DNA of 25,842 bases, taken from a virus. The notes under the pieces were generated by a model that was not told the DNA's origin, did no database searches, and was given only the letters and a program-made list of their open reading frames with translations. The translations under genes were made by a program, and so were the position numbers. The stretch is from IMG/VR virus record IMGVR_UViG_3300030104_003009, positions 1 through 25,842 of that record. One strand, 5' to 3'. Shown piece after piece: positions 640 through 23,129 of the stretch (within the stretch, counting starts at the first letter, position 1; every line of letters starts with the position of its first letter).

Positions 640-1222
640 AGTTTCTCCTGATGGACTGCCTAAGCTTGTTAACTGCCTTGTTAGTGAAGTGAACGGAAAG
701 TCCAGTGCTGCTTCTTAACGCCGAGTGATTAAGACTACCATCTTTTGAAAGGATTCCAGGGTTGCCCATAATCGCGTTAATCACCTTCTTAACATCTTCG
801 GGTTGCTCGTTGGTGAAGTCCTCTAATTCGATAGCAGACAACCCGTATTGAGCCCTTGAGTCTTCAATTCTGTCGTGCAAGCCCTGAGTTTCTCCGTTGG
901 CATGGTCTTGATCGATTGAATAATGCTTTTTCCTAAAGTCCATCTTCTTAGAGAGAGGAATACCTTTTTTTGCTTTACGGTTCCAAAGCACTGTCTTTGT
1001 ATACTGATCAAACAATTTATTATCAATGGCTATATCAAAGCTCTCTCCTGTCTTTTTCTTAAAGCCCTCAATGGACTCCAAAGCCGCCATACAAAGATCG
1101 GAGTAGTTATCTTCATGTGAGGCTAGAGCAGAATCGCCAGAAATCTTCATGGCGATTGTGTGCATTAGCTTACCATAACGCTCTTCGTAGAGAGCCCACT
1201 GCTTATCAGTTAATTGGGTCAT
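629..1222 (-). CDS. Sigma-factor-like protein, possible gp55-type late sigma
   Basis: 197 residues. The first 90 residues resemble sigma-70 region 2: an amphipathic start (LYEERYGKLMHTIAMKIS), an acidic DLxxxA-type helix (DNYSDLCMAALESIEGF), then FDQYTKTVLWNRKAKKG, like the helix that carries promoter-melting aromatics. The C-terminal 50 residues (TGLSVHFTNKAVNKLRQSIRRN) could be a helix-turn-helix. Phage late sigma factors of the T4 gp55 class are of this size (about 185 aa) and are small region-2-like proteins. The ATG at 1222 has no Shine-Dalgarno sequence but has a promoter-like box 6 bases upstream. Assignment is by pattern, not by strong identity; another nucleic-acid-binding protein is possible. 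Confidence 0.5.
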   Translation of the reverse strand: MTQLTDKQWALYEERYGKLMHTIAMKISGDSALASHEDNYSDLCMAALESIEGFKKKTGESFDIAIDNKLFDQYTKTVLWNRKAKKGIPLSKKMDFRKKHYSIDQDHANGETQGLHDRIEDSRAQYGLSAIELEDFTNEQPEDVKKVINAIMGNPGILSKDGSLNHSALRSSTGLSVHFTNKAVNKLRQSIRRNYEV

Positions 1223-1228
1223 GTAAAC

Positions 1229-1257
1229 AATTATAGACTAAGGAGTTGCTATTTCAA
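1229..1257 (-). promoter_or_regulatory. Sigma-70-like promoter for the sigma-like gene, leaderless
   Basis: Minus strand TTGAAA (1257-1252), 16-base spacer, TATAAT (1235-1230) within CTATAATT. The -10 box ends 7 bases before the ATG at 1222, so the transcript would start at or within about two bases of the start codon. No Shine-Dalgarno sequence lies between. The -35 box overlaps the stop of the preceding gene. Confidence 0.6.
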
Positions 1258-1562
1258 CTATCCAATCTGGCTTTTTCCTCACGAGAAGTTTCTCTGGAAT
1301 CCTTACCCATACTGAGTAAGCTATAACCACAGATATCTCTCCAAGGAGACTCATCCCCATAGCTAGGATCAGTCGCAAGCCTAAACAACTTGTCCACAAC
1401 CCTGCAAATGGTAAGCACATCTAGATACTGATCGGGCTTAATTCCATCAGGGAATAAAACCTTTAAGATCTTGTGAGCTTTTCCAAAGGAGTCTCCATAT
1501 GCCTCTTGCTTCTCAGCAACTAACTTACCAACGCTTTTTCCTAGTTCTTCGTATCTGTTCAT
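1254..1562 (-). CDS. Conserved phage protein, DUF1599-like (nucleotide-metabolism associated)
   Basis: 102 residues. The pattern EKQEAYGDSFGKA near the N-terminus, then PDQYLDVLTICRVVDKLFRLAT and a final SPWRDICGYSLLS is the layout I associate with small phage proteins of the DUF1599 type, which are linked to nucleotide modification or metabolism. The helix RVVDKLFRLA and the WRDICGY motif are the most family-like parts. The start at ATG 1562 overlaps the preceding zinc-ribbon gene by 38 bases. Function is not established; the family link is a recognition of pattern and should be treated as moderate. Confidence 0.6.
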   Translation of the reverse strand: MNRYEELGKSVGKLVAEKQEAYGDSFGKAHKILKVLFPDGIKPDQYLDVLTICRVVDKLFRLATDPSYGDESPWRDICGYSLLSMGKDSRETSREEKARLDS

Positions 1563-1752
1563 TCTTATTACCTAAATTTCTTTTCAGTATCTGTGTTCTT
1601 GATACACCTGTAACATCCCTGCCTAAACAAGTAGCACAAGTCATTGCCTTATTATATTCATACAACAAGGTCTTGTCTCCACAAGACTGACACTTCCCTT
1701 GTTCAGGAAGCTTACGCAATCTCACTCTCCAGCCATTGAATAATTGGATCAT
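1525..1752 (-). CDS. Small zinc-ribbon protein
   Basis: Up to 75 residues with two paired cysteines, C21-x2-C24 and C39-x2-C42 (CQSCGDK and CATCLGRD), a typical four-cysteine zinc ribbon, followed by a very basic tail (IRRTRKKRW) suited to nucleic-acid binding. The ATG at 1752 overlaps the preceding gene by 41 bases. A TTG at 1719 preceded by GGAGAG at about five bases would give a 64-residue protein and only an 8-base overlap, and may be the true start. Function unknown; a small regulator or transcription-associated protein is plausible. Confidence 0.6.
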   Translation of the reverse strand: MIQLFNGWRVRLRKLPEQGKCQSCGDKTLLYEYNKAMTCATCLGRDVTGVSRTQILKRNLGNKNEQIRRTRKKRW

Positions 1753-1969: not shown

Positions 1970-1974
1970 ATCCT

Positions 1975-2005
1975 AGTTATAGTGATGAACTACCAAAAGT
2001 GTTAA
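1975..2005 (-). promoter_or_regulatory. Promoter-like element overlapping the unfoldase stop codon
   Basis: Minus strand TTAACA (2005-2000), 18-base spacer, TATAAC (1981-1976) in CTATAACT, five bases before the ATG at 1969. The TAA inside the box is the stop codon of the upstream AAA+ gene. Unlike most other boxes in the window, this one is followed by an AGGAT ribosome-binding sequence. Confidence 0.45.
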
Positions 2006-3359
2006 TAATTTCTAACTTATTTTCTCTAACTTCTGCATCATACTTACCTGTGCCGTTCTCAGGTTGTCGATTAGCCAAGATTTCGTCAGCAAGCGGTAGG
2101 CCCACGAGTCTTTTAAGAACGCGCTGAATATCTCTAGCTCCAAATTCTTCTGAATAACCATGTTTAATTACGTAATCAACGATCTCTGGGGTTGCTTTGA
2201 TTGGGTACTTTGCAAGAGCCAGTTTAGCTATCTCCTTAATATCATTCTGTGTTAAATCATTAAAAAAAACAAACTCATCAACACGACCACGAAATTCTGG
2301 TGAGAAGGTCGCTTCAATTGATTTCATAATTTGCTCCTTATCACCAGCAGAACTAATTCCGCTCCTGAAACCCACAGCTTCAGTTTTTAAGTCTTTAAGA
2401 CCACAGTTCGATGTCATAATGAATATTGAGTCTGTAAGGTCAATTTCATTGCCAGAGTTATCAGTAAGGGTGCCCGTGTCTAAAAGAGAAAGTAAAATGT
2501 TGTAGAGCTTAGGGTGTGCTTTTTCTATTTCATCAAAAACAATTGTCCATCGATTAGATTGATCCGCTTTCTCTTTAATTAGAGAGCTTTCAGAGTGACC
2601 AATGTAACCAGGGGGAGATCCTAGAAGTCTACTGACCTCATGCCCATTGGTGAACTCAGCACAATTAATAACCCAAAAATGTTTTGAGTATTTTTCTCCA
2701 AGTTTCCTAGCTAATTGAGTTTTACCACGGCCAGTTTTGCCAATAAAGAAGAGATTCATATGTGTGCTGAAATCAGCAGCTTTAAGCTTTACAGAATCAC
2801 GGACAGCACGAATAGCTTCGTCCTGACCTATAATATTCTTCTTTAAGAAAACCTCCAAACACTCGATGGATTGTAAAGAACTCAAAGGCTTTTCTTTTTT
2901 CTTTTTCTTTTTACTTGTTTTCTCTTCTAACTTCTTTTTAAACTCCTCGTCTTTCTTTGCATCGTTGACAAGAGTCTCTAGAATGAAAGACTCAGGCAGA
3001 ACTTCATTAATTTCATAGCAAACATACTCTATCCTAAAGTCTGGGTAATACTCGACGATGGCGCTGTAGTAAGCTCCCAGTAACTTGTACTCCAATAGCG
3101 GGTCGCTCACTGTTTCCTTTACCTTAGAGGCTTCTTCCATTCTTGAGATGAAAGTTTTCTTCTCATCTGAGGTAACCGAGTCAGCAATAACTATCTTCAC
3201 ATACCTAACGAAATCGAATTCACCAGAGGCGGTCTGTTTAATAAACCTTGTTAGCTTATTAAATAATATCTTGCCTTGACGCTCGGTCAGACGCTTAACG
3301 TGAATGATGGAGTTTAACTCGGCAGAGAACGCTTTAATGCTGTTAGTCTTTCTAGGCAT
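1977..3359 (-). CDS. Single-domain ClpA/ClpB-type AAA+ unfoldase
   Basis: 460 residues from ATG 3359, chosen because AAGGA lies five to six bases upstream and the overlap with the preceding gene is only 8 bases (an ATG at 3383 would add eight residues). Residues about 1-150 are a unique N-terminal domain, followed by a lysine-rich linker (KKKKKKEKP) and one Clp D2-like AAA+ module: IIGQDEAI, Walker A GKTGRGKT (207-214), a pore-loop-like GSPPGYIG (247-254), Walker B VFDEIEKAH (D276, E277), sensor-1 TSN and arginine-finger region EFRGRVDEF, then the small lid domain. ClpB has two AAA+ rings plus a middle domain; this protein has only one. It presumably remodels or unfolds proteins with ATP. No protease partner is in view. 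AAA+ identity is certain; substrate unknown. Confidence 0.93.
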   Translation of the reverse strand: MPRKTNSIKAFSAELNSIIHVKRLTERQGKILFNKLTRFIKQTASGEFDFVRYVKIVIADSVTSDEKKTFISRMEEASKVKETVSDPLLEYKLLGAYYSAIVEYYPDFRIEYVCYEINEVLPESFILETLVNDAKKDEEFKKKLEEKTSKKKKKKEKPLSSLQSIECLEVFLKKNIIGQDEAIRAVRDSVKLKAADFSTHMNLFFIGKTGRGKTQLARKLGEKYSKHFWVINCAEFTNGHEVSRLLGSPPGYIGHSESSLIKEKADQSNRWTIVFDEIEKAHPKLYNILLSLLDTGTLTDNSGNEIDLTDSIFIMTSNCGLKDLKTEAVGFRSGISSAGDKEQIMKSIEATFSPEFRGRVDEFVFFNDLTQNDIKEIAKLALAKYPIKATPEIVDYVIKHGYSEEFGARDIQRVLKRLVGLPLADEILANRQPENGTGKYDAEVRENKLEIINTFGSSSL

Positions 3360-3753
3360 CTTTGTCCTTGTTGAGCATCGCATTTAAGTTACTAAATAGT
3401 GAACCATTCAACTCCTGTTGAGATGGGCCAGCTTTACCCTCTAAATCCATCTCTTTAAGTTGATACTTCTGCATGGTCTGTGCCAATTTGAGAAGTTTTT
3501 CGTTTGCGGTGCCCATCTGACCAAGTGCGTTAGTAGATGCAGCTATAATTTTTGTGAACGCATCCACATTTGGATTGCCATTATCATCAAAGTTAACACG
3601 AGCCTGACCTAGATCCTGCATTGCATCTTTACAGTCCTCAAACAACTGTTGTGCTGCATCACGATCAGACTTTGCGTTGTCTTTAATTTCCTTGACGAGT
3701 CGGTTCATCTTCTGATCCGACCACATCTTGTTCTTCAGAATGTAGTTTGCCAT
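3352..3753 (-). CDS. Hypothetical helical protein, possible gp16-like small terminase
   Basis: 133 residues, almost wholly helical. The segment AFTKIIAASTNALGQMGTANEKLLKLAQTMQKYQ resembles in pattern the central region of T4-type small terminase gp16, which has a comparable [23 protein letters not shown] stretch, and overall size is similar (gp16 is about 164 aa). The start at 3753 has GAGGA eight to nine bases upstream. It overlaps the preceding gene by 71 bases, which is unusually long; internal Met codons at residues 10 and 16 are alternative starts. The terminase suggestion is based on one remembered motif and on no visible large subunit nearby, so it is tentative. Confidence 0.7.
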   Translation of the reverse strand: MANYILKNKMWSDQKMNRLVKEIKDNAKSDRDAAQQLFEDCKDAMQDLGQARVNFDDNGNPNVDAFTKIIAASTNALGQMGTANEKLLKLAQTMQKYQLKEMDLEGKAGPSQQELNGSLFSNLNAMLNKDKDA

Positions 3754-4297: not shown

Positions 4298-4301
4298 ATG
4301 T

Positions 4302-4309
4302 TATTATAG
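4302..4309 (-). promoter_or_regulatory. CTATAATA box four bases before a start codon
   Basis: Minus strand CTATAATA, then ACAT, then ATG at 4297. A convincing -35 is not visible. If used, RNA would begin at about the A of the ATG. Confidence 0.5.
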
Positions 4310-4315
4310 TATATA

Positions 4316-5290
4316 CTAATCTTCATTTAGAAGATTAATAATAGGTTCAACTCCCTCATCACCGGATTCAATAAGATCCTTAAGATGTGCAGACTGGAAC
4401 TTCTTACCTGTCGATTTGACAGTGTACCAGGATCCACCACGCTCTACAATACCATCACGCTCTAGGTGTGGCAAGAGTCCATAGTAGGGATTCAGACCTT
4501 CATTGAACATGAGTTCAAACTCACAGACCTTGAAGGGCTCAATGAGCTTATTCTTTTTGTTCCTCACCTTACCACGAATACCCGTAGGACTCTCTTTATC
4601 ACCCACAACATCAGTCTTTGCTGTTTCCAAGTTTACCCCAAGGTAGTAATCCAAAGCGTTGCCACCAGCAGCAGCGGTTCTAGGATCCCCATACATCTGA
4701 CCAACCTTGTTCCTGATCTGATTAACGATAACAAAAGCAACATTCTTGGGCCTAAGAATAGGATTAATCTTTCTAAGTGCTGCGCCTATCTGCTTTGCTC
4801 GTGTGGCTCCTACCATATTGTTGCCTTCATAGCCCTCAGCCTCCATCTCAGCTTTTGATGGCGAGACAGCTAGACTATCGTAGAAGACCACGATGGGCGT
4901 ATCAGAATCGTCAGTGCGAATTGAGTTGATGATCTTTTCAATCGTATCAAAGCAATCCTCTACACAAGGAGGTGCAGCGTAGATGAGTTTATTAGGGTCA
5001 ACACCTAAAGTCCTTGCAAACACAGGGTTGTATGCATTCTCAGAGTCAATAATGACAGTGTAGTAGCCTTTCTTCTGAGCGTTTCTCAGGATGTGGGTGC
5101 CGAAAACAGTCTTGGCAGTGGACGCGCCCCCAATAAACTGAGTAATCATGCCAATGGGCACACCACCATTGTAATTACCGGAGATCACCTTATTCAAGGC
5201 ATAGGATCCGGTAGAGATGAGTTCTGGTGTAAGCTCCTGCTCAGAGAGCATGGATGCGTTCTTAAGTTTCAGTATGATATCACTGGTCAT
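4316..5290 (-). CDS. uvsX: UvsX/RecA-like strand-exchange recombinase
   Basis: 324 residues of RecA-family core. It polymerises on ssDNA and carries out ATP-dependent strand exchange for repair and recombination-dependent replication. Visible motifs: Walker A at 54-61 (GGASTAKT), catalytic Glu in DSENAYNP (E84), Walker B PIVVFYDSL (D138), and the RecA signature NQIRNKVGQMYGDPRTAAAGGNAL (190-213) that includes the sensor Asn/Gln and DNA-binding loop 2. The Walker A has Ala in place of the usual Gly before Lys; T4 UvsX also departs at this position. Shorter than bacterial RecA (about 350). It lies apart from the gp32/helicase block but with a T4-like partner set in the same window. Family certain; uvsX rather than recA is by phage context. 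Confidence 0.93.
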   Translation of the reverse strand: MTSDIILKLKNASMLSEQELTPELISTGSYALNKVISGNYNGGVPIGMITQFIGGASTAKTVFGTHILRNAQKKGYYTVIIDSENAYNPVFARTLGVDPNKLIYAAPPCVEDCFDTIEKIINSIRTDDSDTPIVVFYDSLAVSPSKAEMEAEGYEGNNMVGATRAKQIGAALRKINPILRPKNVAFVIVNQIRNKVGQMYGDPRTAAAGGNALDYYLGVNLETAKTDVVGDKESPTGIRGKVRNKKNKLIEPFKVCEFELMFNEGLNPYYGLLPHLERDGIVERGGSWYTVKSTGKKFQSAHLKDLIESGDEGVEPIINLLNED

Positions 5291-5294
5291 GCAG

Positions 5295-5325
5295 TATTAT
5301 AGCTCCACAGGCCAAAAGTATTCAA
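5295..5325 (-). promoter_or_regulatory. Promoter-like element for uvsX, leaderless
   Basis: Minus strand TTGAAT (5325-5320), 18-base spacer, TATAAT (5301-5296) in CTATAATA, four bases before the uvsX ATG at 5290. The CTA TAA in the box is the last codon and stop of the upstream gene. The nearest GGAG is about 12 bases from the ATG, too far for a normal ribosome-binding site. Confidence 0.55.
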
Positions 5326-5719: not shown

Positions 5720-5725
5720 GGCCTA

Positions 5726-5755
5726 AATTATACCAACCAGTTCCAATTTTACCAA
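5726..5755 (-). promoter_or_regulatory. Sigma-70-like promoter for the DNA glycosylase gene, leaderless
   Basis: Minus strand TTGGTA (5755-5750), 17-base spacer, TATAAT (5732-5727). The box ends seven bases before the ATG at 5719, predicting a start of RNA near 5720. The region 5720-5774 is the only divergent intergenic space in the window and must also serve the plus-strand genes; a CTTATATA sequence at 5765-5772 lies two bases before the plus-strand ATG. Confidence 0.6.
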
Positions 5756-5774
5756 CACTAAATACTTATATACC

Positions 5775-6221: not shown

Positions 6222-6590
6222 CTAGCAGCCGTCATCTTCGTGATCGTTGTTCTGATGGCGAACTCCACCACCCTTCACAAAGCCGTTGGGGTAACGAGAA
6301 AGTAACTTGTCCACGTTGGCCTGTGCAATTTCAGTAAGACTAAGCTGAAGATTTGCAGCAGCCATGGCAACATAGTAGAGAATATCACCAAGCTCTTTCT
6401 TGGCATCTTGGCGATTTAGTGGCTTTGCATGGAAATGCTTTTTCTTAATTAATTCACAGTATTCACCAGCCTCACCAGCAATACCTAAAGCCCAGTTAAG
6501 ATTAGCTTCGTCCCAAGACATATCAGGGTTGGCTGTTCGCTTACATGCTTCCTGATATTCATTAAATTTTATCGTCCTACGAGGATCCAT
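6222..6590 (-). CDS. mazG: MazG-like nucleoside triphosphate pyrophosphohydrolase
   Basis: 122 residues with the all-alpha NTP pyrophosphohydrolase metal-binding motifs: GEAGEYCELIK (E40, E43) and KKELGDILYYVA (E66, D69), i.e. ExxE...ExxD. These enzymes hydrolyse (d)NTPs to monophosphate and pyrophosphate; phage versions may adjust nucleotide or alarmone pools during infection. The ATG is fused to the gmd stop (TAATG), so it is the last gene of the long glycan operon, an odd position for a nucleotide enzyme. Ends HQNNDHEDDGC, a short acidic tail. Family confident. Confidence 0.88.
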   Translation of the reverse strand: MDPRRTIKFNEYQEACKRTANPDMSWDEANLNWALGIAGEAGEYCELIKKKHFHAKPLNRQDAKKELGDILYYVAMAAANLQLSLTEIAQANVDKLLSRYPNGFVKGGGVRHQNNDHEDDGC

Positions 6591-7561
6591 TATACAATCT
6601 CCATCCAGTGATTAACCATTTCTTCAACCATACTTTCAAAAGTATACTCAGGTTTCCAACCTAACACCTCTCTAATCTCAGAGGAATCTCCTTTCAAGAA
6701 ATCAAGTTCTTGAGCCCTAAAGTACTTGGGATCTACTTCAACATGGTCTTCGTAGTTAAGTCCAAGCTTTTCAAAAGTAACTTTGCACATGTCTCTAATT
6801 GTTCGGCTTTCACCTGTCGCCACAACCCAATCTCCGGCTGTGTCATAGTTCACAATCATATACATTGCGCGAACATAGTCCTTAGAGTGCCCCCAATCTC
6901 TTGAGGCATTTAGATTGCCTAAAGCAAGCTTATCCTTCTTACCTTTCTTAATCTCCACAGCACCCTTTACAATCTTGTTAGTGACAAAGTTTGAACCTCG
7001 TCTCGGAGACTCGTGATTAAATAGAATGCCGTTACAGACATGCATACCATATGCTGCCCGGTAGTGTCTAACTAAGTTGTAACCCATCACCTTTGCACAG
7101 CCATAAGGCGAGGTCGGTGTCATGGGTGTGGTTTTTCTTTGGTGTCCGTCATCATCAACGGAGTTTCCAAACATCTCAGAGGAACTCGCTTGGTAGAACT
7201 TGACGTTAGGAACAAATTGTCGGCAAACTTCCAATAGGTTTAGAACACCTAATGCATTTGTTTGAATCGTGAAAGAGGGAACATCAAAGCTGACCCTAAC
7301 GTGGCTTTGAGCGCCTAAGTTGTAAACCTCATCGGGCTTAACTTCCGATACAATTCTAGTCAGTGAGGGGACATCTAAAAGGTCACCGTAGTGTAACGTA
7401 ACATCAAGATCTCTAATTCTACTGTCTTGATTTTCAGACACAGAGTTACGGCGCACAATACCGTGAACTTCGTATCCCTTGGACAAGAGAAGTTCTGCCA
7501 AGTAACTACCGTCCTGACCTGCGATGCCAGTTATTAAAGCTTTTTTATTACTCATAGTCAT
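6590..7561 (-). CDS. gmd: GDP-mannose 4,6-dehydratase
   Basis: 323 residues of the extended short-chain dehydrogenase fold. It converts GDP-D-mannose to GDP-4-keto-6-deoxy-D-mannose, the branch point for GDP-L-fucose, GDP-perosamine and related sugars. Seen: Rossmann TGIAGQDGSYLAELL (11-25), VYNLGAQSHV, ASSSEMFG with catalytic Ser/Glu near 126-129, YGCAK with Y153 and K157, NHESPRRG (182-189) and RDWGHSKDYVRAM. Slightly shorter than the usual 340-370. Start shares ATGA with the GT10 stop; the Met at residue 3 is an alternative. No GDP-fucose synthase (WcaG/GMER) is in the window. Confidence 0.95.
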   Translation of the reverse strand: MTMSNKKALITGIAGQDGSYLAELLLSKGYEVHGIVRRNSVSENQDSRIRDLDVTLHYGDLLDVPSLTRIVSEVKPDEVYNLGAQSHVRVSFDVPSFTIQTNALGVLNLLEVCRQFVPNVKFYQASSSEMFGNSVDDDGHQRKTTPMTPTSPYGCAKVMGYNLVRHYRAAYGMHVCNGILFNHESPRRGSNFVTNKIVKGAVEIKKGKKDKLALGNLNASRDWGHSKDYVRAMYMIVNYDTAGDWVVATGESRTIRDMCKVTFEKLGLNYEDHVEVDPKYFRAQELDFLKGDSSEIREVLGWKPEYTFESMVEEMVNHWMEIV

Positions 7562-8388
7562 ATGCTCTTTTCAAAAAACTCACTAATTCCGTGATCCCAT
7601 AAAACCTTATGAACATTATTGTTGATTGCGAGTTCGTAATTCTTTTCCACCGCCTCTAAGTTAGAGTTATACCAAGACTCGTTGGCGACATTTTCTAGAA
7701 TGTGAGACAACTCACCTAACGTTTCAAAGATGATCACGCCTCTCGAATCATAATAGTCATGTATGTTAGAATTCTTATCACCAAAATAAATAGGAACTGT
7801 CCCACAAGCAAAGCAATCGTTAGCTTTTTCAGAAGTATATCCGCTGAATATATTCTCAACAACAACTTGATACCTATAGGGCTTGGTGCCCGTGGACTTA
7901 TCCTCTATGGGTTGATATCCTGTGCCGTACAGATCAAAATGCTGAGAGAACTGTTGGACTATGTCGTGTCTATACTTTTGTGCAGCAGTCTCTCTTTTGT
8001 TAGAAAAGATTACGGACATGTTTTTACTCTTGGGTGTCTTCCACCCAAAGTTAGTTTTGTCCATCTTTATTCTGGGCCACACAGGGTAGTATCTAAATTT
8101 ACTACTTAGGGAGAGTAGAGGCTTGTGGTGTGTGAGAATCATGTCGAATTTATCGTAATTCTCAGCTACCCAAGAATATACCCTTGGTATTATTGTAATT
8201 GGCTCTACAAGCATGGCAACTTTGTGCTTGCTTACATCACTCACTTGAGGTATGAGTGAATCAACATAGATTGTGATATTTGAGCTTTTACCTCTCACAA
8301 GAGTAATGTGATTAGAGCGTTCATTCTCTGCTCCTGTTATATCCGGGGATAAGGACTCGTGATGGAAACCTATGGTGTGTTTATACAT
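7558..8388 (-). CDS. GT10-like alpha-1,3/4-fucosyltransferase
   Basis: 276 residues. The C-terminal half has the GT10 signature: VVVENIFSGYTSEKANDCFACGTVPIYFGD (E178, N179, S186-E187-K188), equivalent to FENS...YvTEK...A...G.vPIyyG of fucosyltransferases. The N-terminal half is divergent. Such enzymes transfer L-fucose from GDP-fucose to an acceptor glycan. Adjacent and coupled to gmd, which makes the precursor of GDP-fucose; this neighbour relation strengthens the call. GAGG at seven bases supports the start at 8388. Confidence 0.85.
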   Translation of the reverse strand: MYKHTIGFHHESLSPDITGAENERSNHITLVRGKSSNITIYVDSLIPQVSDVSKHKVAMLVEPITIIPRVYSWVAENYDKFDMILTHHKPLLSLSSKFRYYPVWPRIKMDKTNFGWKTPKSKNMSVIFSNKRETAAQKYRHDIVQQFSQHFDLYGTGYQPIEDKSTGTKPYRYQVVVENIFSGYTSEKANDCFACGTVPIYFGDKNSNIHDYYDSRGVIIFETLGELSHILENVANESWYNSNLEAVEKNYELAINNNVHKVLWDHGISEFFEKSI

Positions 8389-8390
8389 AT

Positions 8391-9101: not shown

Positions 9102-9107
9102 ACGACC

Positions 9108-9115
9108 TATTATAG
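9108..9115 (-). promoter_or_regulatory. CTATAATA box before the sulfotransferase gene
   Basis: Minus strand CTATAATA, six bases before the ATG at 9101. CTA TAA is the last codon and stop of the upstream DegT-like gene. An AGG lies six bases before the ATG, so translation may not be purely leaderless. No clear -35. It could be an internal promoter within the glycan operon. Confidence 0.45.
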
Positions 9116-12788: not shown

Positions 12789-12789
12789 C

Positions 12790-13230: not shown

Positions 13231-13231
13231 T

Positions 13232-14874: not shown

Positions 14875-14876
14875 GT

Positions 14877-15518
14877 TTACGGTAAATAATCGCTAAGAAA
14901 GTCATCAACTTTCAAACGTTTGTCAGTCGCTACGTTGTTTAAAAAGTATTGAAATTGACCTTCGATATCATGATAGTCCCCGTTGTCTCCAATTTTGAAT
15001 ATTTCGCTTATTCTATTCAAATCAGTATCCCCGTAATCAGGATGCTCTTTCGCGTAGCTAGTGCGGTAGAAGTCCAATCCAGTGATAAATAAGCTGTCGA
15101 TGTCATAGTTCAACAAATCCACCATGGCAATTAGGCCAGTGTTAGGTCTGCTCTTATTGTTCTCATTCAAGCTTGTTTTAATATTACAATACAGATTCGA
15201 ATCTATTATCTTGTGCTTGTTTAAATAAGTGTAACCATACACATGACAAGTTTCCAAACATCGCTCATTGAAGAACCATTCCGAGGGAGGATAAGAGCAA
15301 ACGAGATAATTAAGATTTGTATCTCCATAATCATGATAAGAACCATCATAATAGATGATGTCTGTTCTGGTTCCTGAGTCTAACGGATTACCAATTTTAG
15401 CATGATTTAATCTAACAACTATATCATGTGAATCTATGTAAGATCCATTGTTGCTTCCTTCGATAGACTTTGCGGGTCCAACTAACGCCACTTTTTTACC
15501 TTTTAGATAATTATCCAC
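14877..15518 (-). CDS. GT29-like sialyltransferase-family protein
   Basis: 213 residues starting at GTG 15518 (AAAGGA six bases upstream). KKVALVGPAKSIEGSNNGSYIDSHDIVVRLNHAKIGNPLDSGTRTDIIYYD (8-57) corresponds to the sialyl L-motif of GT29 (GxxxSL...G..Id.hD.ViR.N......dvG.rTd), and RPNTGLIAMVDLLNYDIDSLFITGLDFY (124-151) to the S-motif. A downstream HDIEGQFQYF could supply the His/Glu of the C-terminal motifs. Without a signal peptide or anchor it would act in the cytoplasm. Would transfer a CMP-activated acidic sugar. Lies beside the NeuA-like gene, supporting the call. It lacks about 80-100 residues of the animal stem and spacer. Confidence 0.78.
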   Translation of the reverse strand: MDNYLKGKKVALVGPAKSIEGSNNGSYIDSHDIVVRLNHAKIGNPLDSGTRTDIIYYDGSYHDYGDTNLNYLVCSYPPSEWFFNERCLETCHVYGYTYLNKHKIIDSNLYCNIKTSLNENNKSRPNTGLIAMVDLLNYDIDSLFITGLDFYRTSYAKEHPDYGDTDLNRISEIFKIGDNGDYHDIEGQFQYFLNNVATDKRLKVDDFLSDYLP

Positions 15519-16209
15519 GAGAATCCTTTTTTAGTATTTGATCTACCGAGATATCCAAAGCCAGTATTTTACTAGGGAAGGGTATTGCCCAAGCTGACTC
15601 AGGAGCACAATACCCCGCGTCTAAAACTTTTGTAGGAGGGTTATCAACAAAGTATCTGTTAACATGAGATTCATCGTGGTATATTGCCAATATCCCATTA
15701 GCGTCATCTTTATCAATGTTCGTAGATATTAAATCACAAAGTTTAAGAAACTCTGCGGACGATCCTCCTTGAAAGCCTCCGCAACAATACTGAGATATTT
15801 CATGTTTGCTAAGATAAGCTGTGGAGTTAACTTGCTGATCTTCAGGTGTGCCTTGACGGTTCGCTATGAATCCTGGGTGCTGGACGCCTAGTAGATCGGT
15901 GAGAACTTCCTCCCCAATGTAATCGATTACACGCATATCTGCATCTAAGTAATAGATGTAATCGTAGTGTTTTAGCTTATCCTTTATTGTTAGGAAGTAG
16001 TGATAACGGTAGTAGGAATCTCCAGGCCAACCCTTTGGCTCAATCTCTAATGCGACAGCATCGTGATTCAAAGGATGATTCACGTTATCCGTAAACACGA
16101 AGAAATCTCTATCGTGATTTTTTAGAAAGTACTTGTGAATAGAGTCTAACAGGGGGTTGACAAACTTCACATAGTCATTGGTCGCTATAATTACGAAAGC
16201 TATTTTCAT
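15511..16209 (-). CDS. GT6-family glycosyltransferase (ABO/alpha-1,3-Gal transferase-like)
   Basis: 232 residues from ATG 16209, chosen because it shares ATGA with the preceding stop; the frame is open further upstream. GT-A fold: MKIAFVIIATNDYVKFVNPLLDSI, YIYYLDADMRV with the metal-binding DxD (D89, D91), YCCGGFQGGSSAEFLKLCD, IAIYH-type AIYHDESHVNRYF (near 176-187) and NPPTKVLDAGYCAPE, all matching the order in GT6 enzymes of vertebrates, some bacteria and a cyanophage. Transfers Gal or GalNAc in an alpha-1,3 linkage with retention. DxD kept suggests metal dependence. Confidence 0.88.
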   Translation of the reverse strand: MKIAFVIIATNDYVKFVNPLLDSIHKYFLKNHDRDFFVFTDNVNHPLNHDAVALEIEPKGWPGDSYYRYHYFLTIKDKLKHYDYIYYLDADMRVIDYIGEEVLTDLLGVQHPGFIANRQGTPEDQQVNSTAYLSKHEISQYCCGGFQGGSSAEFLKLCDLISTNIDKDDANGILAIYHDESHVNRYFVDNPPTKVLDAGYCAPESAWAIPFPSKILALDISVDQILKKDSRG

Positions 16210-16991
16210 ATTAAAATCCAATCCTTCGGATGCATATCCTTTGTTGATAAGTGAGCGTTTAAAGGCCCGAACCATTTGGTAGGAGCAACAATCTTCCTAC
16301 CCTTATTATTATTTAACCAAGCACCCCACCAAGAGAAGCTAGAGTTAGCAATTATGTTATTCTGACATAAAGACATTAGATAAATCTCCATGTAATCCTT
16401 TTCCTCGTCAGCTATCACATGCCCTGGGTATTTCTCTCTTGCCCACTCTTTATCGTTGGTAAAGATAATTAACTTGGATGGCTTGAGTAGATCTAAGGCT
16501 TTCTCGTAGTAATCTGTGCTCGTTAAGTCAGCGTGGTAATTTGAATAAGGAAGCTCCAAGTAATCTCCTCTACGGATGTGCATTCCAGTCGTAAGATCAT
16601 CTACGTTATACTTACTCTTCAGATAGTTTAAATCCTCATCGACCATCTCAAACATTTTTAGAATGTGGTCTCTATTGTGTTGAAAATATCGATGACTTTG
16701 AAGGTAACTATTTTTAATAACAAGTGATTTATCGACCACTGGGATGGGTTTGAAATCAAATGAAGACTCGGTAAACACGTAGGCAAGACCCTCGAACTCG
16801 TCTGTACACAATCTTCTTAAGAAGTTATTAAAGTAGCCCCCATGGTTTGAACTCTTTATGGCAGGGAAGGTTGCCTTGTGTCCATTGTCTTTTGAGTAAC
16901 TTAGAACTGAAGCTATTTGGAATAGCTGATTCCCAATACCTGGACACCCAGGTGATGGTCCAATAACATCTGAAGTGATTATATTACTCAT
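16206..16991 (-). CDS. GT11-like alpha-1,2-fucosyltransferase
   Basis: 261 residues. Signature motifs of GT11: GIGNQLFQIASVLSYSK (18-34), SYLQSHRYF (95-103), GMHIRRGDYLELP (136-148, the HxRRxDY nucleotide-binding motif), LIIFTNDKEWA and NIIANSSFSWWGAWLN (212-227). Transfers L-fucose from GDP-fucose to Gal in alpha-1,2 linkage. Placed directly before the GT6 gene; in ABO-type antigens GT6 acts on a fucosylated Gal (H antigen) made by an alpha-1,2-fucosyltransferase, so the pair makes biochemical sense. Family confident. Confidence 0.92.
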   Translation of the reverse strand: MSNIITSDVIGPSPGCPGIGNQLFQIASVLSYSKDNGHKATFPAIKSSNHGGYFNNFLRRLCTDEFEGLAYVFTESSFDFKPIPVVDKSLVIKNSYLQSHRYFQHNRDHILKMFEMVDEDLNYLKSKYNVDDLTTGMHIRRGDYLELPYSNYHADLTSTDYYEKALDLLKPSKLIIFTNDKEWAREKYPGHVIADEEKDYMEIYLMSLCQNNIIANSSFSWWGAWLNNNKGRKIVAPTKWFGPLNAHLSTKDMHPKDWILI

Positions 16992-17602
16992 ACTTTCAAT
17001 GTGAAGTTAGTAAGGTCTGGTTGATCTTTTTGATAGAAGTAAGGACTGTTTGGCGTTAGAACCTTGAAGTCCTTGTGTATGGAAGCCAACGCCACATCGC
17101 AAGGAATAAAATTATCAAGATAAGATTCAATAACCTCAGCAGCCGCGTCGATATATCTCTGACTTAAAAACAACATGGCGTGAGTTCCGCACATGTTATA
17201 CACTCTTTTAAGTTCTGATGTCTCTTGAGTGGCCATCACGATACCGGGATACCCAAAATTGTTGTTCCTAATTGTGCCATGATTAGACACTCCTAAATAA
17301 ACAGCGTCAGCATAATCAGGCACTAAAAACTTTAACTTCAAAGCGTCTGTCGGTACAATATCATCCTCAAACACCACAGTCCCTGGCTTCATACTTTTCA
17401 GAAGATGCAAGTGCGACAAGCCACAACCTACAAAATGATTACCGTAAGGGTTTGATGGGGAGGATGTGGTATTAGCAGACGATCTCTCGAAAGGCAAACC
17501 AAGACGGTCCAAGACACTTTTACACTCTGCCATGGACTCTGTTGATGAATCTACATTGATAACGTAGTTCTTAGTTTTAGTTAGGTCAATAAATCGATCC
17601 AT
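16988..17602 (-). CDS. GT25-like glycosyltransferase
   Basis: 204 residues. KNYVINVDSSTESMAECKSVLDRLGLPFER (11-40) is the typical GT25 opening, FVGCGLSHLHLLKSM (57-71) the conserved GCxxSH motif, and VVFEDDI (76-82) the acidic metal motif; MCGTHAMLFLSQRYID matches the later T.Y.is....k segment. GT25 members are LOS/LPS galactosyl- or glucosyltransferases. Four-base overlap with GT11; its start lies within the end of the preceding gene by 22 bases and lacks a strong ribosome-binding site. Confidence 0.85.
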   Translation of the reverse strand: MDRFIDLTKTKNYVINVDSSTESMAECKSVLDRLGLPFERSSANTTSSPSNPYGNHFVGCGLSHLHLLKSMKPGTVVFEDDIVPTDALKLKFLVPDYADAVYLGVSNHGTIRNNNFGYPGIVMATQETSELKRVYNMCGTHAMLFLSQRYIDAAAEVIESYLDNFIPCDVALASIHKDFKVLTPNSPYFYQKDQPDLTNFTLKV

Positions 17603-18348
17603 GCCTCAAGAACCTTATCGTTTTCCCAGTATTCAGCCTGGGTGTCATTACCTTCGTCACCGTGATATTTCACTCCCGCACTCTTACACTCAGGTTTGAT
17701 TAAGTTAAAGGTCTCAAGCTTTGGAGAGTGGAAAACATCAGTTAATACATCATACACTGACTGCATGTCCGTGGAGATGCCTCTGTAGGAGACTTTATTA
17801 CCAAGCAAAGGCAACACCTTATCGTTAAAATATTCAGGAGAGGTAACCGCTCCATAAATTCTAACATCATCATGCCCATGCTTTAAAGCTCTCTCAATAG
17901 ATTTGTGAGTTCTCTTATTTTCATCTACACTACCGATGATACCAGCCACTTTAAATTTATTATCTTTGGGCGTGTATTTTTGAACAATGTTCGGGATAAC
18001 GTATCCATCGATGCCGTGCCAATCTCTTTGAAAGTTAGAGACAAAGTGAACGTCATCAAACACCAAGTCATTCATCTCTTTGATCGGGAAGATCTCTGTC
18101 TCATGGCAAGATAGTATCTGTTTCTTAACAGGCAACTTGTCAGTCACACGCATGTAGTGGTATACAAACACATCTTCTTTTGAAGGGGACACTTCATCAT
18201 GATGCTTCCACTCACAAGTTATACCATCCCACTTATGTGGAGTGTAAAAACAAGACTTGATACCCTTTGCATTAAGAGCGTTTACAAGACTATTAAAAGC
18301 GATGGTAGACCCACCAGGGCCACCCCAACCACTAACAAATTTAATCAT
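17581..18348 (-). CDS. GT-B type glycosyltransferase, short
   Basis: 255 residues. Starts MIKFVSGWGGPGGSTIAFNSLVNALNAKG, a glycine-rich donor/acceptor loop followed by a helix as in GT-B enzymes; VHFVSNFQRDWHG...YVIPNIVQKYTPKDNKFKVAGIIGSVDENKRTHKSIERAL is the interdomain region with the start of the C-terminal Rossmann domain, and VSYRGISTDMQSVYDVLTDVFHSPKLETFNLIKPECKSAGV the acceptor end with an acidic E. Shorter than usual GT4 (about 350). Probably GT4-like; donor unknown. Confidence 0.75.
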   Translation of the reverse strand: MIKFVSGWGGPGGSTIAFNSLVNALNAKGIKSCFYTPHKWDGITCEWKHHDEVSPSKEDVFVYHYMRVTDKLPVKKQILSCHETEIFPIKEMNDLVFDDVHFVSNFQRDWHGIDGYVIPNIVQKYTPKDNKFKVAGIIGSVDENKRTHKSIERALKHGHDDVRIYGAVTSPEYFNDKVLPLLGNKVSYRGISTDMQSVYDVLTDVFHSPKLETFNLIKPECKSAGVKYHGDEGNDTQAEYWENDKVLEAWIDLLT

Positions 18349-19504
18349 TTAATTTATATCCTACTTTCTGCATTGCTTCCATGTACAGGTCATACCTTCC
18401 GTGGCACAACTTTCGCCCATCAAACAAATCCTTTGTTCGTTCATGTAAATTTCTACCCAATTCAATACGATGATTCTTATCCTTACAAAGCTTTGCGAGT
18501 ATTTTTATCCACTCACTCTTGGGAGCATCAGGATCAATCAAGTAACCTGTTTCACCGTTAATAATTGTATCCTCGTAGCAGCCAACATTACTAGCGACCA
18601 ATGGGATTTTGTAACGAGAACATTCAGCCACCTTGATATCAGACTTAGAATCATTGAAATTATTCATCTGCAAGGGAGCTATTGCAACGTCCATATCCGC
18701 GTAGTAACGCCCGTAAGCATCAGGGGGTAGTGCGTAGTGTATGTTGTAGTTTTTGTGCCCCTTGAAGCCTCTCAGAAGCTGTGAGAGGTACTCAGGCCAG
18801 ACCTTAGCTTCCCAACTATCCTTGGGCTTGTTAGGGTCTGGAGGCGGGTGGCCATAAAAATTCCATTGAACGTTTTCTTTGCCAACCTTTTGATTGACAA
18901 GGTGAGGGATAGCATTAAAGACCCTAACGTCACCTCTATGGTGAATACCAGCCGCGTAACCAATCCTTGTAAACTTCGCTTTTGTTTTTGGATGATTCCA
19001 CGCAGGTAGCTGATAATCTAAACTGTTTTTTACTACCGCTAAACACTTACCTATAAGGGGCTGGATACGACCAGCGAACTTAGCAGATGTAACAGTCACT
19101 AAATCAGCATTGTAATAGCAATACTTTGTAACGTCTCCAAGTTTATTATCCCTATAGGTTTCGTATAAGTGATGCTCCTTATAGAGGTCAGTCAGCAAAT
19201 CATCTGTGTCAAAGTGAACAAACTTCTTCAACTCTTTAGCAATCCCAATAACACGAGCGGTATAGGGTCCTCCATATTTTAAAATGTTTGCAACAAAAAC
19301 AATATCAGCCCAATTCATATCATTGAGTTTGTCTGCTGGGGGAGCGTAATTCTTTTCGGTATCCACCTCCAAAGGGTTGTCATTAAATCTAACTTCAACC
19401 TTATCGCTCAACTCCTGAGCCAGCATCCCCATAGGACTTAATTGTCTGTAGTAACTACAGCCTCCATGATTTGCGAATACAACTAGTATCTTCAGTTTAC
19501 GCAT
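18341..19504 (-). CDS. GT4-type (GT-B) glycosyltransferase
   Basis: 387 residues, full length for the family. N-terminal KILVVFANHGGCSYYRQLSPMGMLAQEL, VHFDTDDLL, then C-terminal domain with RIGYAAGIHHRGDVRVFNAI, WNFYGHPPPD, and DVAIAPLQMNNFNDSKSDIKVAECSRYKIPLVASNVGCYEDTIINGETGYLIDP, the nucleotide-sugar-binding ExxxxxxPxVaS.vG..eD.i..G..G motif. First gene of the glycan array, preceded by its own promoter-like box and by the terminator of the replication block. Family confident, donor unknown. Confidence 0.88.
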   Translation of the reverse strand: MRKLKILVVFANHGGCSYYRQLSPMGMLAQELSDKVEVRFNDNPLEVDTEKNYAPPADKLNDMNWADIVFVANILKYGGPYTARVIGIAKELKKFVHFDTDDLLTDLYKEHHLYETYRDNKLGDVTKYCYYNADLVTVTSAKFAGRIQPLIGKCLAVVKNSLDYQLPAWNHPKTKAKFTRIGYAAGIHHRGDVRVFNAIPHLVNQKVGKENVQWNFYGHPPPDPNKPKDSWEAKVWPEYLSQLLRGFKGHKNYNIHYALPPDAYGRYYADMDVAIAPLQMNNFNDSKSDIKVAECSRYKIPLVASNVGCYEDTIINGETGYLIDPDAPKSEWIKILAKLCKDKNHRIELGRNLHERTKDLFDGRKLCHGRYDLYMEAMQKVGYKLND

Positions 19505-19509
19505 AGGGA

Positions 19510-19517
19510 CATAATAG
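19510..19517 (-). promoter_or_regulatory. CTATTATG box before the first glycan gene
   Basis: Minus strand CTATTATG, five bases before ATG 19504, in the position of the CTATAATA boxes elsewhere. No Shine-Dalgarno sequence. It lies directly after the terminator, as expected for the first promoter of the glycan operon. The -10 match is weaker (TATTAT) and no good -35 is seen. Confidence 0.4.
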
Positions 19518-19529
19518 TCTTATGGGTAT

Positions 19530-19565
19530 AAAAAAAACTAACCCAGATCCAAAGACCTGGGTTAG
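19530..19565 (-). terminator. Intrinsic terminator at the end of the replication block
   Basis: On the minus strand a perfect 9-base stem, CTAACCCAG ... CTGGGTTAG, with a 10-base loop, is followed by eight T residues. It lies 26 bases after the stop of the exported protein gene. This is the clearest terminator in the window. It is not a terminator for the plus strand, where no T-tract follows. Confidence 0.92.
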
Positions 19566-19590
19566 AAACACTGGTTCGCCCTTTGTTTTT

Positions 19591-20148
19591 TTATGCCGAA
19601 GCCGTAGGTTTCTTATCTTCCTCTTCGAAGACTTTCTTCGAACCATCTGAACTGTGAGCCGCACCAATAGCCTTACCAAGCGACACCACAGCATCTTTCA
19701 ACTCCATCTTGCCATTGCCAGGAACAGCAGCCTTAACAGCGGCACCATAGTGCTTACGCTTTCTCTTTGAAAAGAGAAGACCGAGACCTTCGAGCGCAGC
19801 GACACCTGGGAATACTGTGTTCAGACCTCCAAGAGCCATGCTAATAGCAGAGTCTAAGGCTTGTGACCCAGGATCCATCACATCCACGACATCCGCTGTA
19901 GGATCTAGAACGTGAACCTTGTCCACCAGGACTAGGGCTTCTCCCGTAGCAGCCATCTTGCCTGCAACCTCTGGGGGAAGCATACCCAGATCAGCCGGGA
20001 CCGCGTCTGCACGACCCGCAGGGGTTACATTACCAATGGTTGTAACTACCTTGTCAGCGAAGAGACTCTCCGCTAACGCGCAACCAGTACACAGAAGGCC
20101 AAATACTGTAACGAAAAAGCCTGTCAACCAAAATTTCTTATTCATCAT
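19591..20148 (-). CDS. Small exported protein or lipoprotein
   Basis: 185 residues. The N-terminus MMNKKFWLTGFFVTVFGLLCTGCALAES is a signal sequence: basic start, hydrophobic core, then either a weak lipobox (LCTGC, C23) or a signal peptidase I site after ALA. The mature part is Ala/Gly/Val rich, with a weakly hydrophobic stretch SAISMALGGLNTVFPGVAALEGLGLLF, a basic patch KRKRKHYG and an acidic tail. Start in an ATGA overlap with the SSB gene; GGGAG upstream. Last gene before the terminator. Could be involved in host envelope change or lysis; family not recognised. Confidence 0.7.
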   Translation of the reverse strand: MMNKKFWLTGFFVTVFGLLCTGCALAESLFADKVVTTIGNVTPAGRADAVPADLGMLPPEVAGKMAATGEALVLVDKVHVLDPTADVVDVMDPGSQALDSAISMALGGLNTVFPGVAALEGLGLLFSKRKRKHYGAAVKAAVPGNGKMELKDAVVSLGKAIGAAHSSDGSKKVFEEEDKKPTASA

Positions 20149-20966: not shown

Positions 20967-21012
20967 TTTATTTCTCCTTTAGGCTGTTGGTTTGCAATCG
21001 AGTTCTAACAAG

Positions 21013-21435: not shown

Positions 21436-21829
21436 AAATTGTTGCGAATAATTTGGGGTTAAACTTATGAATTAACATGGACTGTTTAGTAAGGGCTACC
21501 ACAAGCTGCTCATTAGACATGAACATCCTCTGCTGGTCAAAGTTTTTCTCGTCTAATCCTACACCTTCTAACATACAGTGGTAGATTTCATGAATTATAG
21601 TCTCACGAGCATCGAAATCAGAGAGATTCATCTCTAATTTTATTGCACGCTCATCCCAACAGCATACGCCGTCAACTTTCTGATCGTCCTGATGTAAGTC
21701 TGAGTGAAGCTCAAAGGTGAACGTGGCCCACCCCAGTTCTATCTCACCGATTTCTTTATCTACAAATTTATTGTAGATATGTTTTTTGTCTTTTATAAAA
21801 GGGAAATCACTCGGCTTGCTGTTCTTCAT
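21428..21829 (-). CDS. HExxH metallopeptidase-like protein
   Basis: 133 residues with the zinc-binding motif ETIIHEIYHCMLEGVG (H80, E81, H84) preceded by a strand WDERAIKLEMNLSDF, the order seen in small gluzincin-like phage proteins and ImmA/IrrE or SprT-like peptidases. The third ligand is not certain. C-terminal helix NEQLVVALTKQSMLIHKFNPKLFATI. Encoded between helicase and UvsY-like genes with a 23-base overlap with the helicase. Could cleave a host or phage DNA-bound protein, or be a structural fold only; substrate unknown. Confidence 0.75.
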   Translation of the reverse strand: MKNSKPSDFPFIKDKKHIYNKFVDKEIGEIELGWATFTFELHSDLHQDDQKVDGVCCWDERAIKLEMNLSDFDARETIIHEIYHCMLEGVGLDEKNFDQQRMFMSNEQLVVALTKQSMLIHKFNPKLFATIYA

Positions 21830-23117
21830 GTGATGGTTCTCTCATCTGAAGGGTCGTGTAGTCGATCCCAATATTAATTAGATAGTGCTGTTTCGAGTCA
21901 CGAGCCTTAATAACAAAGACCCGCATTTGGCCCTCATCATACTCTTCTTGCGTCTGATTTAAAGAGATAACCCAATCGGCAGGACGAATTTTTCCATATG
22001 AGTCGCCAAGCTCTGCGTCTGTGATAATGTTGACACGGCGTGCCTGACGGTTCGTTTGAGAGGCTGTCCAGACAAGGCAATTATGCTCGACCGCAAGCCC
22101 TCGAAGCTCCTCTGCAATTCTCTGTTGAGCTTGATACTCAGAATCAATAATACGGTTTGGACGTAGAAGCTCAAGGTAGTCTACAATAATCAGATCAGGC
22201 ACGAAGTCCTTGTGAAGTCGCAACTGTACGAGCAGGGCTCGCAACTGATTCACATTAGACGCACCCGTTGGGAACTCTTTAATAATCAGCCTGCCGTTGG
22301 TTTTCTTCTGAACTTCTTTAAGGCGATCCTTAAGCTTCAACTGAGCATGAGGCTTCTTGAGATCAGCATTACGAATCTCTGTAAGCACAGAGTCGAATCG
22401 TCCTGCGATCTTATCTTGGCTCATCTCCAATGAGAGATACAAGACATTCTTACCCTCATAGATGGCATGAGCACCCTGGTTCACAAGGTATAGTGACTTA
22501 CCAACACCTGGAGGTGCTACCACAATGGCAAGCTCCTTAGCTGCTAACCCACCTTCAAGGTTCCTATCATGGGTAGCGAAGACTGTAGAAATTTTTCGCT
22601 CGGTGTTGCCCTGGTAAGACCTGTATAGGCGAGCGTTAACCTCTTCAAAGTAGTCCTGGCCAACGTCTACGTTGCGATTTACGAGTAGCGCGTTCTTTAC
22701 AAGCTCCTCAACCTCTGCGATTTCACCCTCTTCGTTTAGGATGACCATCGCTTTACGAACCGCACCGTCCATTGCCTTTTGGCGAGCAAACTCCTCTACG
22801 GTGTCGAGAAGGAACTCACGGTCACCAAGGCAAGACTTGTCGATAGTGTTGATCTCTGCAATGGTATTCTCGTAATCAATACCAGTGTCAGCCGCGCCGG
22901 AGACGCTAGCATTAATGTAGTCTGGTAGAACTGAGTCAGAGGGCAGCTTTCGATACTTATCGTAGTAATTCCTTACCCCCAAGAAAACATTCTTGTAAGC
23001 AGGAAAGTCGAAGTAATCAGCCTTTAGAAGTGGAACGATCTCAGAGAAGAACTCAATGTCCTTCTTGAGAAGGTACAGACAACCACGCTTGGTGTTGTCG
23101 CTAATATGGTAGGGCAT
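21807..23117 (-). CDS. DnaB/gp41-like replicative helicase
   Basis: 436 residues. N-terminal helical domain (1-170) then RecA-like motor: Walker A APPGVGKS (201-208), LSLEMSQDKIAGRFDS with catalytic Glu (E231), Walker B PDLIIVDYLELLRP (D313), LVWTASQTNRQARR (349-361) and the Arg-rich end. It unwinds the replication fork as a hexamer and would carry the primase. Starts at ATG 23117 without a Shine-Dalgarno sequence; CTATCATA lies four bases upstream. The preceding gene ends 21 bases upstream. T4 gp41-like by context; no primase is in this window. Confidence 0.93.
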   Translation of the reverse strand: MPYHISDNTKRGCLYLLKKDIEFFSEIVPLLKADYFDFPAYKNVFLGVRNYYDKYRKLPSDSVLPDYINASVSGAADTGIDYENTIAEINTIDKSCLGDREFLLDTVEEFARQKAMDGAVRKAMVILNEEGEIAEVEELVKNALLVNRNVDVGQDYFEEVNARLYRSYQGNTERKISTVFATHDRNLEGGLAAKELAIVVAPPGVGKSLYLVNQGAHAIYEGKNVLYLSLEMSQDKIAGRFDSVLTEIRNADLKKPHAQLKLKDRLKEVQKKTNGRLIIKEFPTGASNVNQLRALLVQLRLHKDFVPDLIIVDYLELLRPNRIIDSEYQAQQRIAEELRGLAVEHNCLVWTASQTNRQARRVNIITDAELGDSYGKIRPADWVISLNQTQEEYDEGQMRVFVIKARDSKQHYLINIGIDYTTLQMREPSHEEQQAE

Positions 23118-23121
23118 AGTT

Positions 23122-23129
23122 TATGATAG
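23122..23129 (-). promoter_or_regulatory. CTATCATA box before the helicase gene
   Basis: Minus strand CTATCATA, four bases before ATG 23117, one base different from CTATAATA. No clear -35 and no Shine-Dalgarno sequence. Confidence 0.35.

Follow-up and report, generated by a model that had tools for sequence, protein, structure and literature searches.

In Deinococcus radiodurans, as described in a passage of PMC12340547, a TANNNT motif lies about 6-7 base pairs (bp) before the open reading frame (ORF) at almost one third of the ORFs, a separate class carries GGAG, and leaderless mRNA is formed. Most of the middle and late mRNAs of the Thermus phage phiYS40 were reported to be leaderless (a passage of PMC3594737), and the mRNAs of cI and cro in the temperate phage PY54 begin at the AUG, with the promoter immediately upstream (a passage of PMC4488713). 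An aside in an excerpt of PMC5312081 notes that transcripts of phages frequently lack a leader. The existence of leaderless phage mRNAs is already known from phiYS40 and PY54. The present analysis concerns a TATAAT-like box that stands a few nucleotides (nt) before the ATG of several genes in an uncultured marine T4-like phage, the record IMGVR_UViG_3300030104_003009 of 27,347 bases, of which positions 1-25,842 were analysed as a 25,842-nt window. The boxes appear to be conserved -10 elements fixed at the start codon, and leaderless or nearly leaderless transcription is the best explanation for them, with a probability of roughly 0.8.

The closest parallel is found in the Deinococcus-Thermus group, where a -10 motif is adjacent to ORFs and a leaderless class exists beside a Shine-Dalgarno (SD) class (passages of PMC12340547). 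That case differs in that it involves cellular genomes, has TANNNT as its motif and was tested experimentally, whereas the present one involves a phage, has the consensus C-TATNAT-R and is read from sequence. PY54 differs in that two genes of the lysogeny switch are concerned, whereas the design seen here recurs over many genes of a T4-like phage. The passages available from PMC12340547, PMC3594737, PMC2984593, PMC9004378, PMC10268837, PMC5312081, PMC4488713 and PMC11845039 do not describe leaderless transcription in a T4-like phage (in the excerpts of PMC9004378 and PMC11845039, the word 'leaderless' stands among the references alone); this is no claim that such a report does not exist in print. 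A recurrent, conserved and apparently leaderless design, in a T4-like lineage that also has a different box at its capsid-side genes, was not met in the literature examined.

A preliminary description of the window had listed eight minus-strand boxes 4-6 nt before an ATG, and all eight are present. They are given below with the gap between the 8-mer and the ATG, together with one contrasting start; the exact 8-mer CTATAATA occurs at three of the eight (4302, 5295 and 9108).

1229..1236, minus strand: box CTATAATT, 6 nt before ATG 1222 of the sigma-like gene, with TTGAAA 16 nt upstream of the hexamer
1975..1982, minus strand: box CTATAACT, 5 nt before ATG 1969, with the stop codon of the upstream AAA/Clp gene inside it
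4302..4309, minus strand: box CTATAATA, 4 nt before ATG 4297
5295..5302, minus strand: box CTATAATA, 4 nt before the uvsX ATG 5290, with the stop codon of the upstream gene inside it
5726..5733, minus strand: box GTATAATT, 6 nt before ATG 5719
9108..9115, minus strand: box CTATAATA, 6 nt before the sulfotransferase ATG 9101, with the stop codon of the upstream gene inside it
19510..19517, minus strand: box CTATTATG, 5 nt before ATG 19504 of a glycosyltransferase gene
23122..23129, minus strand: box CTATCATA, 4 nt before ATG 23117 of the gp41-like helicase
20974..20980, minus strand: SD sequence AAAGGAG without a box, before the gp32-like gene (ATG 20966)

Across the window as a whole, the 8-mer with up to one mismatch is not enriched (35 matches against 28.3 ± 5.7 expected, 35 being reached in 13 of 100 shuffles). 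This overall frequency is not unusual; it is the placement of the box that is significant. TATAAT with at most one mismatch stands 4-8 nt upstream of 10 of the 35 starts listed by hand in the window, and 2000 dinucleotide shuffles gave a mean of 2.04 and a largest value of 9. Two of the ten (11047 and 18348, both TATAAA) were judged to be chance matches, and 11047 is also a misplaced start in the list. The statement that boxed starts mostly lack an SD sequence was borne out: seven of the eight have no SD 4-mer in -16 to -4, the exception being 5290, with GGAG upstream of the box. The AGGA at 1969 is no more than 5 nt away from the ATG, which is too near for it to act as an SD sequence.

The placement was then counted in 13 contigs (the window record and 12 relatives) with 679 genes, which were called by hexamer coding statistics, their starts being picked blind to box and SD. 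The scan that the preliminary description had proposed, of the box at a fixed distance from the ATG against controls, gave a clear result: the distance from the end of an exact TATAAT to the start was 5 nt in 19 genes, 6 nt in 14, 7 nt in 12 and 8 nt in 4, i.e. 49 against about 3 expected from positions 12-44, and no peak was seen in the controls. In six T4-like phages (T4, Syn9, HTVC008M, Melnitz, AG-345-P14 and P-HM1; 50-80 kilobases (kb) of each), the exact hexamer was found at 4 of 512 starts, with 5.1 expected, and the hexamer with one mismatch at 32, with 36.5 expected. TATNAT at 4-8 nt was found 77 times in the 13 contigs, against 11.1 expected, and 10 times in the six controls, against 13.9; in three more distant contigs it preceded 22 of 299 starts, with 4.7 expected. 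The gene caller missed or misplaced some boxed genes, such as uvsX of the window, which was placed at 5251 and not at 5290, so that the positional counts are low rather than high.

In 15 related records, the pattern CTATAATRN{3,6}ATG was matched 68 times and its reverse nine times (all matches in G007 being common to G008); in ten capsid-side records the counts were 18 and 2. The same pattern gave 14 observed and 14 reversed in seven control phages, and 16 and 14 in eight. The boxes are beyond chance, and their placement at the ATG is real. The first 50 kb of phiYS40, scanned in the same way, gave 2 exact hexamers against 0.24 expected and 10 with one mismatch against 2.7; phiYS40 is therefore like the present lineage in being a phage with a peak of the same kind before its starts. 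It differs in its host and in its UvsX, which is about 31% identical, and here the peak is found at replication and accessory genes.

Conservation was examined for five window genes in a total of 63 non-redundant orthologues, all of them at least 55% identical and with the start codon aligned. The box is present with up to one mismatch in 62 of the 63 and exactly in 56, and an SD 4-mer in three. For the single genes, the exact TATAAT was found in 12 of 13 orthologues of the sigma-like gene (ATG 1222), 11 of 11 of g4082 (ATG 4297) and 7 of 7 of g5297 (ATG 5719). With up to one mismatch it was found in 16 of 16 orthologues of g1712 (ATG 1969) and 16 of 16 of uvsX (12 exact), the latter including relatives down to 57% identity; two of the 16 uvsX orthologues have any SD 4-mer. 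For gp41, 14 of 17 non-redundant orthologues have the box within one mismatch of TATAAT, four of them exactly, and the sequence varies between TATAAT, TATCAT and TATTAT. The box at 9101 recurs in one relative with an aligned start, and TATTAT stands at a place similar to that of the 19504 box in three relatives with aligned starts. Two unboxed neighbours, clp and g3352, have an SD sequence in 29 of 29 orthologues; a third, g3873, which overlaps its neighbour, has neither box nor SD in 14.

The sequence around the box is much less constant at some of the genes. At uvsX, the flank from -50 to -15 holds 0.20-0.43 bit per column, against 1.13 in -14 to -4, and at g4082 the values are 0.55-0.69 against 1.40. 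In a set of 75 orthologous boxes, taken only if they were within one mismatch of TATAAT, 13 of the 15 deviations fall at hexamer position 4 and two at position 6; a C precedes the hexamer in 67 and an A or G follows it in 64.

Comparison of the junctions points to two kinds of gene start. None of the 220 overlapping or nearly overlapping junctions in the non-redundant set has an exact box, and 32 of the 261 other junctions have one. The earlier claim that boxes mark nearly all non-overlapping junctions holds roughly within the window, where the gp32 gene at 20966 (gap 46, strong SD) is the clear exception, and fails in the wider set. An SD 4-mer was found at none of the 32 exact-boxed starts and at 174 of 449 unboxed starts, and all 32 boxed starts use ATG. 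The base before the ATG is a pyrimidine at 29 of these 32 and at 26 of the 35 starts whose box has one mismatch; among the 173 unboxed starts whose gap is at least 5, it is a pyrimidine at 96 (exact boxes against unboxed, Fisher p 1e-4). Transcription initiation prefers a pyrimidine at -1 and a purine at +1, and this is the base expected if the A of the ATG initiates. That A is the sixth to ninth base after the hexamer, and the usual window for the start of transcription is 6-9 nt past the hexamer.

The -35 region is less regular. The four good -35 elements that had been noted (TTGAAA-16, TTAACA-18, TTGAAT-18 and TTGGTA-17) are all in the sequence, but they are the exception in general, and a good -35 as a general rule was rejected. 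For the 32 exact boxes, the mean best -35 score was 1.72, whereas 1000 shuffles gave 0.68 ± 0.33 (p 0.002), and TG occupies the extended -10 place in six of 32. The average -35 signal is weak, and most sites have no recognisable -35. Conservation of the -35 is confounded, because at several genes this region lies within upstream coding sequence.

Hairpins resembling intrinsic terminators were found upstream of some boxes, where there would be little room for a leader. The example in the window is as follows.

19538..19565, minus strand: intrinsic-terminator-like hairpin with 12 pairs and a T8 tract after it, ending 33 nt upstream of ATG 19504; the box lies in between

Examples chosen by eye in relatives show hairpins with 11-17 pairs that end near the boxes of large genes. 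Eight hairpins were folded, and none of 200 shuffles folded equally well for seven of them and one of 200 for the other. Among same-strand junctions, upstream folding below -18 kcal/mol was seen at 9 of the 38 with a box and at 8 of the 228 without one (p 1e-4).

In divergent gene pairs at five places, the start codons are separated by 12, 13, 14, 14 and 15 nt, and every one of these spacers contains a box.

G011 42609/42623 and 103098/103111, L252, G026 53000/53015, G030 74555/74570: close divergent pairs whose spacer is approximately one -10-like box

Of the 22 divergent spacers that are 0-45 nt long (16 contigs, partly redundant), 19 contain TATNAT on each strand; four pairs with overlapping calls (spacers -2, -2, -11 and -17) were left uninterpreted. 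At 22 non-redundant terminase junctions, the divergent partner has its box 5 nt (once 6) from the ATG in all 22, while on the terminase side the nearest hexamer is more than 8 nt from the start in 19, mostly at 18-24 nt. At the RusA junctions, the partner has a box at 4-9 nt in 9 of 18, and RusA itself has an SD 4-mer in 12 of 18 and its hexamer 14-20 nt away in 15. The sequence at the terminase and RusA junctions (among loci L193-L272 and L273-L319) is a near-symmetric TATAATA/TATTATA, near to one start and mostly 14-24 nt from the other. One such element seems to serve both strands at divergent junctions. Bidirectional sigma-70 promoters in which a near-symmetric -10 serves both strands have been described (a passage of PMC10268837); the present case differs in that the element stands 5-7 nt from a start codon, so that one arm is predicted to be leaderless, and in that the starts come as close as 12-15 nt.

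We infer that the boxes are -10 elements of the sigma-70 type, with the consensus C-TATNAT-R at 5-8 nt from the ATG. The fixed spacing would let RNA polymerase start at the A of the ATG or a few bases away, giving leaderless or nearly leaderless mRNAs, which would presumably be translated through direct recognition of the 5' AUG. The host sigma-70 holoenzyme probably reads the boxes, although this is a guess. Leaderless transcription fits because it agrees with the distance, the pyrimidine before the ATG, the lack of SD, the restriction to non-overlapping junctions, some of the hairpins and the divergent spacers of 12-15 nt. The suggestion of leaderless transcription in the preliminary description is thus supported by the positional scan and by the features of the starts, the 5' ends being predicted from sequence.

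Several observations weigh against this explanation. One orthologue of the sigma-like gene has no box. The contig G010 has no excess (TATNAT 1 against 1.67 expected), and in eight more distant records a looser pattern gave a weaker signal (52 against 27 reversed, many matches being common to G026 and G027). No difference in the median of upstream folding energy was seen when boxed junctions were compared with unboxed ones (p 0.09). The -35 is weak, with TTG at a spacer of 16 or 18 in six of the 32 exact boxes and at 17 in none. Several boxes lie within gene runs, where read-through mRNA could carry the same genes. Finally, the divergence of the flanks is smaller at the sigma-like gene, slight at g5297 and absent at g1712, where the upstream sequence is coding, and the decay of conservation at third codon positions is likewise uneven over the five genes; confidence in leaderless transcription was slightly lowered for this reason.

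Among the other explanations, it is possible, if less probable, that these are real promoters whose mRNAs carry very short leaders of 1-8 nt and not none, a variant that is compatible with the preferred explanation. The gaps of 7 and 8 nt, which account for 12 and 4 of the 49 exact boxes, would allow a start 1-2 nt before the ATG; the commonest gap, however, is 5 nt (19 of the 49), and the pyrimidine is enriched directly before the A of the ATG.

A further explanation concerns the factor that reads the box, and for it the sigma-like protein and the capsid-side genes have to be considered.

629..1222, minus strand: sigma-like protein of 197 amino acids; Pfam Sigma70_r2 at 20.5 bits, the curated cut-off being 24

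Sigma70_r2 was matched by 12 of 12 orthologues at expect values (E) of up to 0.1, the best being 2e-4. The AlphaFold model of the protein is poor (mean predicted local distance difference test (pLDDT) score 61). The first 13 rows of a Foldseek search with it were sigma factors or transcription initiation complexes, with a best E of 0.079 and none below 0.001. The protein is conserved within the lineage and had no match among 50,697 phage records, and no PHROG named as sigma matched it up to E 1. Identity with T4 gp55 was considered and not adopted, as the profile of the 12 orthologues did not reach T4 gp55 up to E 10.

At the capsid-side genes, a different box was found. In 164 upstream regions, TAAATA was counted 44 times, with 26 of these sites no more than 20 nt from the start, whereas on the replication side there are 30 in 378 regions, without a focus near the start. 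In the capsid-side examples (loci L110-L184), the order is a terminator-like hairpin, GGTAAATA and then the ATG or an SD sequence. The box stands 0-9 nt from the start in 13 capsid-side cases, so that short leaders or none are possible in places at these genes too. Exact TATAAT within 0-9 nt of the start was found once in the 164 regions. Additional TATAAT-like words with one mismatch, 3-7 nt from capsid-side starts, appeared in redundant data and were discounted, because few are left without redundancy and several are part of TAAATA boxes. The TAAATA box resembles the late promoters TATAAATA of T4 and NATAAATA of cyanophages (passages of PMC2984593), but the first TA is rarely present, and the full 8-mer TATAAATA was found once in the 164 regions. 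In the T4-like cyanophages S-PM2 and Syn9, a sigma-70-like motif was described at early genes and NATAAATA as the late promoter (a passage of PMC2984593). A possibly comparable split is seen here, with TATNAT at replication genes and TAAATA at capsid-side genes; Syn9 and P-HM1 differ, however, in having no fixed-distance box in 80 kb of each, nor one by pattern in the whole records. The phage sigma-like protein may serve the TAAATA boxes, which is again a guess.

That the TATAAT-like box is instead a -10 read by the sigma-like protein, and not by host sigma-70, is unlikely; the transcripts would still be leaderless. The phage encodes such a protein, with the weak Sigma70_r2 matches and the sigma-type Foldseek rows given above, and the -35 elements are poor. 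The gene of the protein is itself boxed, however, so that another factor would be needed first, the distinct TAAATA box is a possible target for a late sigma, and the weak -35 signal at 16-18 nt fits a holoenzyme of the host type.

It is improbable that the box is a translation signal, i.e. an AU-rich ribosome site in leadered, co-transcribed mRNA, and no promoter at all. Several boxed genes follow closely behind a gene on the same strand, and at 1969, 5290 and 9101 the stop codon of that gene lies inside the box. On the other hand, the box has the sequence of a -10 hexamer, some boxes are directly preceded by the end of a hairpin, and the divergent partner of terminase, boxed throughout, has no upstream gene on the same strand with which it could be co-transcribed. 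Least credible is the explanation by wrong start codons, in which the true starts would lie downstream and the box would be an ordinary promoter with a leader: our gene caller did sometimes take a later start, as at uvsX, and in the sigma-like gene the third positions of codons 2-10 are no less conserved than the first (1.18 against 1.19 bits), but third positions are the least conserved in the other four of the five genes, clearly so, no further in-frame ATG occurs in codons 2-9 of any of the 63 orthologues and the same ATG is kept in all five families.

The gene content places the phage among the T4-like ones. The window encodes UvsX, a gp32-like protein, a gp41-like helicase, NrdA, MazG, an AAA/Clp-like ATPase and a run of sugar-nucleotide and glycosyltransferase genes. 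Of the T4-type core, UvsX, gp32 and gp41 are in the window, and the major head protein, tail sheath and large terminase were seen in relatives, the virion genes lying outside the window.

4316..5290, minus strand: UvsX-like recombinase (phrog_97, E 4.2e-63; Pfam RecA, E 4.4e-46)
21807..23117, minus strand: DnaB/gp41-like helicase (phrog_19, E 8.2e-86)

Among the 50,697 phage records, the best identity was 35.5% for UvsX (among the matches listed, the best 60 of 3164) and 34.6% for gp41 (among the matches listed, the best 15 of 3404), and no record exceeded 60% for either. The relatives in IMG/VR comprised 32 UvsX, 13 sigma, 75 capsid, 52 RusA and 64 gp41 loci and the best 80 of 478 terminase relatives; related contigs reach 91, 111 and 130.6 kb. 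The AAA/ClpB-like ATPase gene at 1977-3383, in the replication region, has AAA_2 and ClpB D2-small domains and is kept by relatives. A long run of sugar-nucleotide, glycosyltransferase, methyltransferase and sulfotransferase genes extends over 6590-19504. The gene at 19591-20148, downstream of gp32, has a product with a lipoprotein-like start (a hydrophobic stretch ending in LLCTGC) and is followed by a terminator-like hairpin.

The sole lead to a host is the locus L082 (NZTP01000040.1), with a UvsX 95% identical, on a contig binned in a metagenome-assembled genome of Altibacter. This host was not accepted, because finding a phage contig in a metagenome bin says little about its host and may be a binning artefact, and because the promoters of Bacteroidota differ. 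Phage tRNAs were listed and could not be matched to hosts.

The conservation of the box suggests that leaderless mRNAs are a recurrent feature of this T4-like lineage, which has many uncultured relatives and no near relative among the 50,697 phage records searched. The box gives a simple rule for the prediction of start codons and operons in related contigs, and where a single near-symmetric -10 box takes up most of the spacer of a divergent pair, very compact natural promoters would be at hand. It is predicted that the host translates leaderless mRNA well. More tentatively, the phage may sort its genes by type of mRNA, with leaderless heads of replication and accessory runs behind C-TATNAT-R, and virion genes behind TAAATA, many of them with SD leaders, perhaps by means of its own sigma-like protein. 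If this is true, infection would switch both the class of promoter and the mode of translation initiation, and a shift in the activity of initiation factors could favour one class.

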